Shown: positions 52,946 to 56,777 of the stretch, in pieces
Position numbering within the stretch: the first letter of the stretch is position 1
Layout: each line of letters starts with the position of its first letter
Translations under genes and position numbers: made by a program
From: Baekduia soli
GTDB lineage: Bacteria > Actinomycetota > Thermoleophilia > Solirubrobacterales > Solirubrobacteraceae
Assembly: GCF_007970665.1 (NCBI RefSeq)
Contig: NZ_CP042430.1
Location: 3,906,001-3,970,000, forward strand
DNA: 64,000 bases
Reading direction: 5' to 3'
Notes under the pieces: generated by a model
Seen by the model: only the letters and a program-made list of their open reading frames with translations
Told to the model about the DNA's origin: nothing
Database searches by the model: none

Positions 52946-55363
52946 ATGGAGCCTGAGGGGAGCACGCGTACGGCCGTGGTCGGTGCGCACGCGGGCACGC
53001 GCGATGCCCTGGCCGGCGAGTGGCGGCGGCTCTCGCGCGCGGCGACGTTCGTCGCGGTGATGACCAGCCCGGCCCTGATGGCGGTGCTCATCGGCGTCGA
53101 CGACTGGCCCTGGGGCTGGGCGCTGCTGGTCACGATCGTGGCCGTCGCGGCCTTCCGCGGGCTCATCGACATCCTCGTGCACCGGTTCATCCCGCGGCCG
53201 AGCCTGTACGGCGCCGACCGCGAGGCCCTGCTCGACGACGCCACCGCCCGGCGGCGCCTGTGGTTCTGGCGCGGCAAGTTCCGCCTGGTGCTCTGGGTCG
53301 CCGGGATCATCTTCGGCGTCCTGGGGACCATCGCCACGATCGCCGGCGAGTCGATCCCCCACCTGCTGACCAACATCGGCAACGCGCTGACCGACCCGCA
53401 GATGCTGGTCACGCTGATCACGCTCGGGATCCAGCTGCCGCTGCTGTTCTTCATCAACTTCGCGATCATCTTCGGGCCGCTGCTGTACTTCGGCCTCAAG
53501 CAGATGAAGGGCTACGAGCCCGGGGACGCCGACTGGGGGGTGCGCCTGGAGGACGTCCGCGGCCAGGCCGAGCCCAAGGAGGACGTCACCCGCGTCATCG
53601 AGCTGTGGCAGTCGGGCGAGGAGTTCCGCAAGGCGGGCGGCAAGCCCGAGCGCGGCCTGCTCTTCATCGGCCAGCCCGGCACGGGCAAGACGATGCTCTC
53701 CAAGGCCATCGCGACGTCGTTCAACTCGCCGATCGTGACGATGCCGGGCTCGGGCTTCCAGCAGGCCTTCATGGGGCTGGACTCCGTCGTGGTCATGTTC
53801 ATGATCCGCAAGGCGCGCAAGCTCGCCCGCAAGTGGGGCGGCCAGTGCATCATCTTCATCGACGAGATCGACGCCGTCGGCCTGCGCCGCCAGGCGCTGG
53901 GCACCGGGACGATGACCGGCATGGGCCCGGGCTCCTTCGAGGACCACGCGTTCTTCGGGCCCTGGGGCGCGCAGTCGGCGTCGGGCGACCTCGTGCTGGA
54001 GACGCGCGCCTGGCGCGAGCGGCTGTTCGCCAGCCGGGCGGAGACCCACGGCCCGTTCCTGCCGCCCGGCCTCGAGCGCTTCTACGGCCGCATCAACGAC
54101 TTCATCTTCCCGGGCGGCGGCATGGGCGGCATGGGCGGCGGCATGGCGCTCAACCAGCTGCTGGTGCAGATGGACGGCGTGGACGAGCCGCCGTTCTGGC
54201 GCAAGTTCTGGACCAACCGCATCAACACGCTGCTCGACGCGAGCTACCTCGTGCCGCGACGGCTGTTCGGCCGCTCGCTGCGCATCCGCCCGCCCAAGCC
54301 GCGGCCGGAGCAGGTGTACTTCATCGGCGCCACCAACGTGCCCATCGACCGCCTGGACCCGGCGCTGATCCGCCCAGGCCGGATGGGCCGCCACGTCTGG
54401 TTCCGCACGCCGACCAAGGACGACCGGGCCGACATCTTCGACCTGTACCTCACGCGCGTCGACCACGACCCGGACCTCGACACGCCCAAGCGCCGCGACG
54501 AGCTCGCGCGCATCACCAACGGCTACTCGCCGGCCATGATCGAGCAGGTCTGCTCCATGGCCCTGACCTACGCCCACAGCGAGGGCCGCGTCGACTTCGG
54601 CTGGGACGACATCGTCGAGGCCATGACCACGATCGAGTCGGGCACGGCGCAGGGCGTCGACTACGTCGCCGAGGAGAGCCGCGCGGTCGCCATCCACGAG
54701 GCCGGCCACGCGGTGGCCTCCCACGTGTACATGCACGACGTCCTGTCCACGCGCCTCTCGATCCGCAAGCGCGGCGGCTCCCTCGGCCACCACCAGGCCA
54801 TCGAGAAGGAGGAGCGCTTCTCGAGCTGGCGCCACGAGGAGGTCGGCAAGCTCGTGTGGACGCTCGGGGCCATGGCCGCCGAGCACGTCTTCTACGGGGA
54901 GAACTCCACCGGGGTCGGCGGCGACGTGCAGAGCGCCACCAGCCGCGCGGCGTGGATGGTCGGCATGTGCGGCATGGGCCCGATGCCCGTCGACCTCAGC
55001 CACGTCGAGTTCCCTGACGACGCGGCGCGCGAGGAGGCCGAGCGCGAGTACATGGAGCGCTTCGAGCGCATCGGCGAACAGATCCTCAACCGTGCCCGCG
55101 GCCAGCGCGAGAGCGGCGACTCCATCGCCTCGATCCTCATGGACGGCCACAAGCGCCGCGCCGCCTCCCGGATCCTCGGGCAGTCCTACATCACGGCGGT
55201 CTGCCTCGTGCGACACAACCGCGACCAGGTCGCCCACATCGCCGACATGCTCGTGGAGCGCAAGGAGCTGCACGGCGACGAGGTCGTCGAGCTGCTCGAC
55301 GCCGCCCGCCTCGAGGCACCGGCGATCGACATCACCGACGAGACGATCTGGCCCAAGCTGTGA
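52946..55363 (+). CDS. Divergent FtsH-like AAA+ membrane metalloprotease with large insertion
   Basis: An 805-residue protein. The N terminus has four or five membrane helices (about residues 30-170), not the two of classical FtsH. The AAA+ module has Walker A in FIGQPGTGKTMLSKAIATSF (about 242), Walker B in CIIFIDEIDAVGLRR (about 300) and the arginine finger in LIRPGRMGRHVWFRTP (about 475). Walker B to RPGR spans about 170 residues against about 65 in E. coli FtsH, so there is an insertion of roughly 110 residues including a Gly/Met-rich loop and DEPPFWRKFWTNRINTLL. The protease domain keeps AIHEAGHAVASH (zinc site, about 582) and STGVGGDVQSAT (third ligand Asp). It is co-translated with the next gene. 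Confidence 0.9.
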   Translation: MEPEGSTRTAVVGAHAGTRDALAGEWRRLSRAATFVAVMTSPALMAVLIGVDDWPWGWALLVTIVAVAAFRGLIDILVHRFIPRPSLYGADREALLDDATARRRLWFWRGKFRLVLWVAGIIFGVLGTIATIAGESIPHLLTNIGNALTDPQMLVTLITLGIQLPLLFFINFAIIFGPLLYFGLKQMKGYEPGDADWGVRLEDVRGQAEPKEDVTRVIELWQSGEEFRKAGGKPERGLLFIGQPGTGKTMLSKAIATSFNSPIVTMPGSGFQQAFMGLDSVVVMFMIRKARKLARKWGGQCIIFIDEIDAVGLRRQALGTGTMTGMGPGSFEDHAFFGPWGAQSASGDLVLETRAWRERLFASRAETHGPFLPPGLERFYGRINDFIFPGGGMGGMGGGMALNQLLVQMDGVDEPPFWRKFWTNRINTLLDASYLVPRRLFGRSLRIRPPKPRPEQVYFIGATNVPIDRLDPALIRPGRMGRHVWFRTPTKDDRADIFDLYLTRVDHDPDLDTPKRRDELARITNGYSPAMIEQVCSMALTYAHSEGRVDFGWDDIVEAMTTIESGTAQGVDYVAEESRAVAIHEAGHAVASHVYMHDVLSTRLSIRKRGGSLGHHQAIEKEERFSSWRHEEVGKLVWTLGAMAAEHVFYGENSTGVGGDVQSATSRAAWMVGMCGMGPMPVDLSHVEFPDDAAREEAEREYMERFERIGEQILNRARGQRESGDSIASILMDGHKRRAASRILGQSYITAVCLVRHNRDQVAHIADMLVERKELHGDEVVELLDAARLEAPAIDITDETIWPKL

Positions 55364-56418
55364 GCGACGAGCACGACACGACCGCCGGCGACCGGGCGGC
55401 GGCCCGCGAGCCCGACGTCCGCGCCGATCCGCGCACGCGGCCGCCCGACCCGGCGGGCACGCGGCCGATGCACGATCCGGACTCGCTCCTGCCGCCCGCC
55501 CGCGCGCCCCGGCCCGCGCCCGGCGCCCCGCTCTGGGACCCCTCGGCGGTCGCGCCCCACGACCCGGACGCCGACGCGGCCGCCGACGTCGCCGACGAGG
55601 ACGAGGCGCCCGAGCGCGACGACGCCCGGGTCGCCGCGGCGCCGTCGCTGTCCGAGCCTGCCGTCTCGCGCTACTCCCCCCGCTTCCAGTTCGCGCTCGG
55701 CGCCCTGCTGGCCATCGGCGCGGCGGCCATCGTGCTGCTCGTCGCGGTCATCGTGGGCGGCGGCCGCACGTCGGGCTCCAGCCGCCTGGCCACCGGCCCG
55801 GCCTGGTCGGCCTGGCACCCGACCGCCAGCGGCGGGGACGGCCCCACCCAGATCGCCGACCACGTCGGCCGCGAGTACCGGCTGCCCGACGGCAGGCAGC
55901 TCGTGGCGGTCACCGGCGGCCCGCTGGAGATCGCCGGGCTGCCCGTGACGATCGCCCTGCGCGAGACGCCGGCCCAGGGCGGCGACATCAAGCTGATCGA
56001 CGGCAACGGCGTCCTGTTCCGCATGTGCGGCCTGGGCGACAAGTGCGCGATCTCCTCCGGCAGGGCCTCGACCCAGCGCCACCTGCTGCTGCGCCGCGAG
56101 GCGCTCGAGCTCGCGCTGTACTCGTTCCGCTACCTGGCCGTCGACGAGGCCGTCGTGTTCCTGCCGCCCAAGAAGGGCGAGGACCCGACGCAGGCCGTCT
56201 TCTTCCGGCGCGCCGACACCGACCTGCGCAACGCGGTCGCCAAGCCGCTGGACGCCACGCTCGTCGGCCGGACGCCGTCGGTGTCCAGCGTCACGCGGTC
56301 GCCCGACGCCCAGCTCGTGCAGACCATCACCACGTCCAAGCTGTTCAGCTTCAGCTTCACGCAGGCCAACCAGGACGCCCGCGCGTTCCTGGTGCTCGAC
56401 CCCCTGCCGGGCAACTGA
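55360..56418 (+). CDS. Membrane-anchored protein paired with the FtsH variant
   Basis: A 352-residue protein from GTG 55360, overlapping the FtsH-like stop. The first 105 residues are acidic, Pro/Asp-rich and probably disordered. One membrane helix follows (FALGALLAIGAAAIVLLVAVIVGGG), then an extracytoplasmic domain of about 210 residues with SRLATGPAWSAWHPTASGGD, REYRLPDGRQLVAVTGGPLE, a CGLGDKC cysteine pair and a final TITTSKLFSFSFTQANQDAR. A single-pass partner with external domain resembles the HflK/C or adaptor logic for FtsH, but it is not homologous as far as I can see. Confidence 0.7.
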   Translation: MSDEHDTTAGDRAAAREPDVRADPRTRPPDPAGTRPMHDPDSLLPPARAPRPAPGAPLWDPSAVAPHDPDADAAADVADEDEAPERDDARVAAAPSLSEPAVSRYSPRFQFALGALLAIGAAAIVLLVAVIVGGGRTSGSSRLATGPAWSAWHPTASGGDGPTQIADHVGREYRLPDGRQLVAVTGGPLEIAGLPVTIALRETPAQGGDIKLIDGNGVLFRMCGLGDKCAISSGRASTQRHLLLRREALELALYSFRYLAVDEAVVFLPPKKGEDPTQAVFFRRADTDLRNAVAKPLDATLVGRTPSVSSVTRSPDAQLVQTITTSKLFSFSFTQANQDARAFLVLDPLPGN

Positions 56419-56777
56419 GCATCCTGCGGGCATCCGGGGAGGAGCGCGCCGCGCTGCGGCGGGCCAAGGAGCGCCTGGACCGCCTCGACTACTACCCGCA
56501 CCCCGTGCGCCTGCGGCGCACGGTGCGCATCCTCACCGTCCCGTGGCTGTTCCGGCTGCCGTGGTTCTCGCGCTTCGACGGCTACACGATGTGGGACCTC
56601 GTGCTGCTGCGCGAGCCGCCGGGCGCTGCCGGCGACGACCTGATCTGCCACGAGCTCTGCCACGTCTGGCAGATGCAGCACCGGCCGCTGGCCATGCCGC
56701 TGAGCTACCTCTACCGCGGCTACGCCTCCAACCCCTATGAGGTGGAGGCGCGGGCCGCGGCGGAGGCGACGCGCTAG
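56415..56777 (+). CDS. Small HExxH metallopeptidase-like protein, CTG start likely
   Basis: About 120 residues if translation begins at CTG 56415, which overlaps the preceding TGA (CTGA); no ATG, GTG or TTG fits before residue 30. The core is DLICHELCHVWQMQHRPLAM, an HExxH zinc motif (HELCH), followed by YRGYASNPYEVEARAAAEAT, where the Glu in NPYEVEA may be the third ligand. Small proteins of this kind (eCIS-core-like or SprT-like layout) are often of unknown function. It ends the FtsH-like operon and overlaps the convergent zinc-finger gene by four bases. Confidence 0.6.
   Translation: MSILRASGEERAALRRAKERLDRLDYYPHPVRLRRTVRILTVPWLFRLPWFSRFDGYTMWDLVLLREPPGAAGDDLICHELCHVWQMQHRPLAMPLSYLYRGYASNPYEVEARAAAEATR

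Follow-up and report, generated by a model that had tools for sequence, protein, structure and literature searches.

Can a membrane AAA+ protease carry its extracytoplasmic module as a separate, co-encoded protein? A gene pair of Baekduia soli raises this question. The pair lies in a 64,000-nucleotide stretch (the window; contig NZ_CP042430.1, positions 3,906,001 to 3,970,000) of a 5.2-Mb genome assembled on a single contig. The first gene encodes a divergent FtsH variant, termed FtsHv here, and the second encodes a single-pass membrane protein, termed the partner. Our favored reading, to which we assign a probability of roughly 55%, is that FtsHv would work as an active AAA+ protease of the membrane, with its periplasmic module supplied by a distinct, exchangeable subunit; both the activity and the complex are drawn from genomic support. 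With start codons assigned by rule, the layout of the pair is as follows.

52946..55363, + strand: FtsHv, membrane AAA+/M41 protease variant, 805 amino acids (aa) (ATG at 52946, stop at 55363)
55360..56418, + strand: partner, 352 aa, single-pass, N terminus inside (N-in) (GTG start)
55693..55758, + strand: partner membrane helix, about residues 112-133 (hydropathy, AlphaFold)
55807..56406, + strand: partner external domain, about residues 150-349 (AlphaFold pLDDT mostly above 90)
56026..56046, + strand: C223-x5-C229 of the partner, the sole two cysteines of the external domain (homolog alignment)

The FtsHv-partner pair

An earlier reading of the window (the original prediction) had described FtsHv as overlapping a single-pass protein, and these coordinates hold: the FtsHv stop and the partner start share 4 nt (GTGA). 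We collected 41 neighborhoods, 39 of which had sequence beyond FtsHv and 37 of which remained after two duplicate records were dropped. The partner was directly downstream of FtsHv in 37/37 distinct loci (39/39 with the duplicate records), and in most of them the two reading frames overlapped by 4 or 16 nt. Systematic sampling was confined to Actinomycetota, with a class sample of 399 Thermoleophilia genomes and a phylum sample of 198 Actinomycetota genomes. In the class sample, FtsHv was found in 79 genomes, the partner in 80, and both in 78; these class-level counts are not independent of one another, yet they cover at least five families. Two discordant genomes, G244 and G387, one with FtsHv alone and one with the partner alone, break off at a contig end, and in two others the genes lay on different contigs, both at contig ends (G337 and G186); contig ends thus account for all four of these apparent exceptions. 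A further discordant genome, G246, has one weak, divergent partner-like protein (L202 4282-5316), which adjoins an ABC ATPase gene on a contig without FtsHv. A second partner copy occurs at L206 1281-2429 (G211:C148), in a genome that has the FtsHv-partner pair elsewhere. Neither FtsHv nor a confident partner was found outside Thermoleophilia in the phylum sample; partner matches in two genomes from outside the class (G474 and G485; E values of 2e-4 to 8e-4 over ~60 positions) were too weak and were not accepted.

The linkage of FtsHv and partner is obligate, while the other neighbors in the window change: a zinc-finger gene recurs in 16/37 loci, an ABC transporter gene in 12/32, a hydrolase gene in 7/37, and a zinc-ribbon gene in 6/38. 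Close spacing by itself gives co-expression, and the two genes could be merely co-transcribed envelope genes whose proteins act in separate steps. We regard this as rather improbable, since the pairing persists over at least five families through this turnover and almost no genome has FtsHv or partner alone.

The conserved part of the partner is its external domain, which was modeled with pLDDT above 90 for the bulk of residues 150 to 340; the membrane helix is N-in by charge. The external domains of 35 of the 36 partner homologs contain exactly two cysteines, which suggests a disulfide and an extracytoplasmic location. In the 36th homolog (L091:4234-5208), the sole cysteine-free one, both cysteines are gone together. 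Pfam gave no match for the partner, a Foldseek search with the external domain gave no convincing relative (best E value, 0.64), and no Band 7/SPFH domain was matched among the 36 homologs. The best VIA-align result, sex pheromone precursor/CamS (Z 5.5, rmsd 5.5, 102 residues), is at noise level and was rejected.

The main rival to a subunit role, which we consider unlikely, casts the partner as a substrate or client dedicated to FtsHv, for instance, a sensor or regulator of the envelope whose destruction is triggered by a signal. Co-encoding of proteases with regulated membrane substrates can occur, and the cytoplasmic N-terminal tail of the partner, which is long, disordered, and fast-evolving, could be an initiation site for an AAA+ protease. 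However, conservation lies in the external domain and not in the tail, which comprises just 10 to 40 residues in many homologs, and strict co-presence with a consistent gene order suits stoichiometric partners better.

Motor, protease, and membrane part of FtsHv

The features of FtsHv on which the remaining argument depends are listed below.

53669..53692, + strand: Walker A GQPGTGKT, residues 242-249 (21-ortholog alignment)
53849..53866, + strand: Walker B IIFIDE, residues 302-307 (21-ortholog alignment)
54380..54391, + strand: arginine fingers R479 and R482, RPGRMGR (21-ortholog alignment)
54695..54709, + strand: zinc site HEAGH, H584-EAG-H588, residues 584-588 (21-ortholog alignment)
54923..54925, + strand: D660, third zinc ligand (ortholog alignment)
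53036..53500, + strand: four predicted membrane helices, about residues 31-51, 57-78, 112-134, and 162-185 (family-averaged hydropathy)
Residues 296-300, + strand: five-residue addition KWGGQ just before Walker B (65-sequence alignment)
53906..54124, + strand: insertion 1, 73 aa, residues 321-393, at the pore loop 2 site (alignments; AFG3L2 comparison)
54197..54313, + strand: insertion 2, 39 aa, residues 418-456, just after the MDG(V) inter-subunit signaling (ISS) site (alignments; YME1L comparison)
55004..55087, + strand: M41-domain insertion, about 28 aa, in the FtsHv branch only (65-sequence alignment)

FtsHv matched Pfam AAA at 83.0 bits (gathering cutoff, 21.2) and Peptidase_M41 at 80.3 bits (gathering cutoff, 29.9), which together with HExxH plus the third Asp, Walker A and B, and two arginine fingers places it in the AAA+ M41 peptidase superfamily. 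Its score against TIGR01241, the FtsH equivalog model, was 231.5 bits versus a cutoff of 600, below FtsH sensu stricto. Walker A and B, both arginine fingers, HEAGH, and D660 are conserved in 21 orthologs and the catalytic residues are invariant, which confirms the motif calls of the original prediction; the aromatic pore loop 1 is F275-M-G277. HEAGH is intact in FtsHv, so that it does not fall among the FtsHi pseudo-proteases, which are defined by loss of the zinc-binding motif. FtsHv is an active-looking, distinct FtsH variant, whose proteolytic activity we infer from these motifs; by homology to FtsH, a role in quality control is plausible. A role as a defense system was considered and dropped, as FtsHv gave a generic AAA match to IetA and nothing more.

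The original prediction had proposed a check for a standard ftsH in the same genome, and one is present. Besides FtsHv (78 bits), the genome has three M41 genes, at 246, 226, and 182 bits, and the top-scoring one has a standard FtsH N terminus; its neighbor, named by eye, is presumably a tilS-like gene. The divergence of the FtsHv M41 domain (78 to 80 bits versus ~246 for the ordinary FtsH), its 28-aa insertion, and the replacement of HEAGH by HEACH or HEASH in a sister subclade described below are what one might see if FtsHv mainly extracted proteins from the membrane or chaperoned assembly and proteolysis came second. Within the FtsHv branch, however, HEAGH and D660 are invariant, which would be unexpected without selection for zinc chemistry, and we judge this alternative improbable.

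Relative to Aquifex FtsH, one expansion in FtsHv separates the Walker B helix from LNQLL, and another separates MDG from the GATN strand. The expansion between Walker B and the arginine finger that had been predicted as one insertion of ~110 residues is therefore real but consists of two blocks, of 73 and 39 aa. Across the FtsHv branch, insertion 1 spans 63 to 79 aa and insertion 2 spans 39 aa (65-sequence alignment). We take insertion 1 to lie at pore loop 2 from a residue-by-residue mapping onto F421 of AFG3L2. Among the 21 orthologs, G338, G341, E352, W356, R357, F361, and R364 are invariant in insertion 1, and N427, D431, A432, P437, L445, R446, and P452 are invariant in insertion 2, so both insertions are under constraint. 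A local assembly artifact, one outcome that would have undone the original prediction, is ruled out, because both insertions recur in every ortholog from independent assemblies, as does the pairing with the partner. AFG3L2 has 4 extra residues in pore loop 2 that create a second staircase for gripping substrate, and the ISS motif of YME1L is DGF (PMC12994072).

Family-averaged hydropathy gave four main peaks for the membrane part; of the four or five helices first proposed, four are best supported, and the fifth peak is weak and overlaps two of the others. AlphaFold helices (residues 12-39, 56-81, 92-133, and 151-188) agree with hydropathy, within a model that is poor overall. Lysine plus arginine content is 5.0 at the N terminus, 0, 7.3, and 0.7 in loops 1 to 3, and 5.1 in the stretch after helix 4, a distribution that obeys the positive-inside rule and thus indicates that both termini are inside. 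The predicted outside loops are 5 aa and about 22 to 35 aa long, the second being about 25 aa in the FtsHv of the window, and FtsH_ext, the FtsH periplasmic domain, had no Pfam match in FtsHv at E values up to 1. On these predictions FtsHv is without a folded periplasmic domain, as its outside loops leave no room for one. The missing FtsH_ext match and the tiny outside loops make FtsHv and the partner complementary in architecture, and the partner probably stands in for the lost outer domain.

The wider M41 clade and the neighboring HELCH gene

Weak M41 matches in other Actinomycetota share both insertion sites with FtsHv. In a tree built from a 65-sequence alignment with the insertion columns removed and including 31 canonical-type FtsH sequences (all actinobacterial), FtsHv and the insertion-bearing proteins were split from canonical-type FtsH by a 100/100 branch. 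The phylogeny against classical FtsH that had been proposed as a check thus separates the FtsHv side. Within the insertion-bearing clade, FtsHv itself forms a subclade with 100/100 support and a long branch; the inner order of the clade is not firm because the tree program warns of long branches meeting. It is highly improbable that FtsHv is an ordinary FtsH paralog with unimportant loop insertions. The fold family is clear and FtsH paralogs are common in the class (1 to 7 M41 matches per genome wherever any were found), but the TIGR01241 score, the separation in the tree even without insertion columns, the invariant residues in both insertions, and the missing periplasmic domain all stand against it.

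A profile that separated known cases (clade, ≥355 bits; canonical, ≤324 bits) found the insertion-bearing clade in 57/198 Actinomycetota genomes (~29%). A tblastn search of plasmid records added members in Nonomuraea and Thermomicrobium roseum, which were placed by their insertions and stand outside the tree; the T. roseum member is annotated as "AAA family ATPase" (WP_012643090.1). The clade is characterized by both insertion sites, 4 to 5 extra residues before Walker B, and no large periplasmic domain, all of which FtsHv has. Its other members have shorter insertions (medians of 19 and 31 aa) and two or four membrane helices, and none of the 25 first examined outside the FtsHv branch has the partner downstream. 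We found no description of FtsHv or the clade in the searchable literature, a scope that leaves out most subscription journals and all preprints. No paper within this scope mentioned FtsH together with Thermoleophilia, and the one that mentioned it together with Conexibacter was a review of Streptomyces development.

The sister subclade, whose members have HEACH or HEASH where FtsHv has HEAGH, is multi-helix and without an obvious periplasmic domain. A lipoprotein gene lies directly upstream, usually overlapping, in 12/14 of its loci (these include L158, L160, L163, L210, L211, and L213-L219), and at one of the two remaining loci a gene for a PDZ/TPR lipoprotein lies 54 nt upstream. Homology between lipoprotein and partner was not detectable (hhalign probability, 0.2%). 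The lipoprotein family is uncharacterized, and most members have a CxxxC motif near the C terminus. In Thermomicrobium, a protein with a single transmembrane (TM) helix is encoded 12 nt upstream of the clade member. Both arrangements are independent parallels to the FtsHv-partner pair, and the use of an unrelated lipoprotein in the sister subclade suggests a swappable module more readily than a swappable substrate. A wider clade with a missing periplasmic domain and, often, a separate exported protein alongside lay beyond the view of the original prediction. For at least two branches of the lineage, a protease working with a separately encoded extracytoplasmic protein would be the most economical account of this genomic pattern.

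Several observations weigh against the partner as a replacement subunit. A third subclade (FIEEID; loci L164-L166, L168, L178, L180, L181, and L183-L191), in which the first Walker B Asp is Glu and HEAGH or HESGH is kept, is also without a large periplasmic domain, yet no consistent exported neighbor was found at the loci examined; some members can therefore do without a separate partner. Foldseek, VIA-align, and Pfam recognized no kinship of the partner domain with either HflK/C or the FtsH periplasmic domain. The AlphaFold model of FtsHv is poor (pLDDT, 63; pTM, 0.37; pLDDT below 50 in much of the AAA region) and permits no statement on the folding of the insertions. Finally, strict linkage is equally compatible with a dedicated substrate and with a subunit.

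Under the subunit reading, FtsHv would be a catalytically competent, membrane-anchored M41-type AAA+ zinc protease. The divergent clade ancestral to it would have lost the FtsH periplasmic domain and gained the pore loop 2 and ISS loop insertions. The partner would be a dedicated membrane subunit, its helix beside those of FtsHv and its disulfide-bearing external domain replacing the missing periplasmic domain, where it would receive or admit membrane or surface protein substrates for FtsHv to extract, thread, and degrade in the cytoplasm. The pore loop 2 insertion may strengthen the hold on substrate or act as a gate where the motor meets the protease chamber. A broader version is tentative and, in our estimate, somewhat doubtful: a new membrane AAA+ protease architecture, widespread in Actinomycetota and found in at least one lineage of Chloroflexota/Thermomicrobia. 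In it, FtsH would have had its extracytoplasmic module split off and repeatedly replaced by unrelated co-encoded proteins (the two-cysteine single-pass protein, a lipoprotein, and others), and the large insertion in pore loop 2 would form a new gate between motor and protease ring.

How membrane AAA+ proteases choose substrates across the membrane is an open question, and neither HflK/C nor the periplasmic domain of FtsH is disentangled from the remainder of that enzyme. A separate, exchangeable extracytoplasmic gene in this clade would permit module-swap tests of substrate selection, and the large insertions at pore loop 2 and the ISS site serve as natural experiments on motor grip and on signaling around the ring.

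Downstream of the pair lies the HELCH gene, which had been proposed as the third member of a distinct membrane system.

56415..56777, + strand: HELCH, small metallopeptidase-like protein, about 120 aa (optional third gene; start codon uncertain)
56649..56663, + strand: HELCH motif

The case for the proposed overlap with the partner is weak: at its homologous 5′ end (interval 56400 to 56510), the HELCH frame lacks ATG, GTG, and TTG, and only a CTG overlaps the partner stop (CTGA); the other start candidate is the next standard start, an internal GTG at 56508. The protein gave only sub-threshold Pfam matches, of 15 to 17 bits over the HExxH region (eCIS core/YgjP-like metallopeptidase). HELCH follows the partner in 13/37 loci from several families (in two of these, the domain was matched in pieces), and it also occurs unlinked or in genomes without FtsHv. 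Coupling and conserved order thus hold for FtsHv and the partner and fail for the third gene, and the trio as proposed is not supported. Among 199 genomes sampled, 20 have HELCH; 13 of the 20 have FtsHv, in 11 of which HELCH is next to the pair. Against the base rate of 79/399 (20%), this association has a binomial probability of 1.4e-5, the significance of which is inflated by genome relatedness. The HELCH gene accompanies the pair optionally and is overrepresented in genomes that have it.

Some observations on records and genomes stand apart from this argument. Three genomes of one genus (G070, G080, and G085; 97 to 98% complete) gave zero M41 matches in the class sample, against a near-universal FtsH in the class; assembly gaps or real loss are possible. 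CAMCUD010000010.1 (L029), titled as a Bifidobacterium breve metagenome-assembled genome, carries the Thermoleophilia operon at 67% identity, with a flanking ABC gene at 70% identity, and the record name looks wrong. In Herbaspirillum sp. ST 5-3 (L032 2621-6963), an IS21-like istA/istB element interrupts an ordinary ftsH at the Walker B region.

Comparison with known systems

FtsHv resembles FtsH in its Walker motifs, arginine fingers, aromatic pore loop 1, HEAGH plus Asp, and N-terminal membrane anchor. It differs in having four predicted helices and no periplasmic domain, where FtsH has two helices and a periplasmic domain, and in its pore loop 2, post-ISS, and M41 insertions and separate partner gene; it also scores far under the TIGR01241 equivalog cutoff and lies outside canonical FtsH in the tree. 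Plant FtsHi pseudo-proteases are divergent FtsH paralogs that occur beside active ones and have lost the zinc motif. FtsHv is likewise a divergent paralog beside an ordinary FtsH, but it keeps that motif.

The 4-residue pore loop 2 insertion of the m-AAA protease AFG3L2, which engages substrate (PMC12994072), is the counterpart of a 73-residue insertion in FtsHv, which has an ISS-side insertion as well. Closer is the clade typified by WP_012643090.1 of Thermomicrobium roseum, which shares both insertion sites, the extra residues before Walker B, and the lack of a large periplasmic domain; it differs from FtsHv in its shorter insertions and the absence of the partner, and some members have an upstream lipoprotein. 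For the partner, the nearest functional analogy is HflK/HflC, which are membrane-anchored, FtsH-associated proteins with a large extracytoplasmic part, thought to control the access of membrane substrates (PMC12048511; PMC13097134). The partner is likewise membrane-anchored with an extracytoplasmic part; in place of an SPFH/Band 7 match it has a two-cysteine domain that matched no known fold, and it is strictly co-encoded with FtsHv alone.

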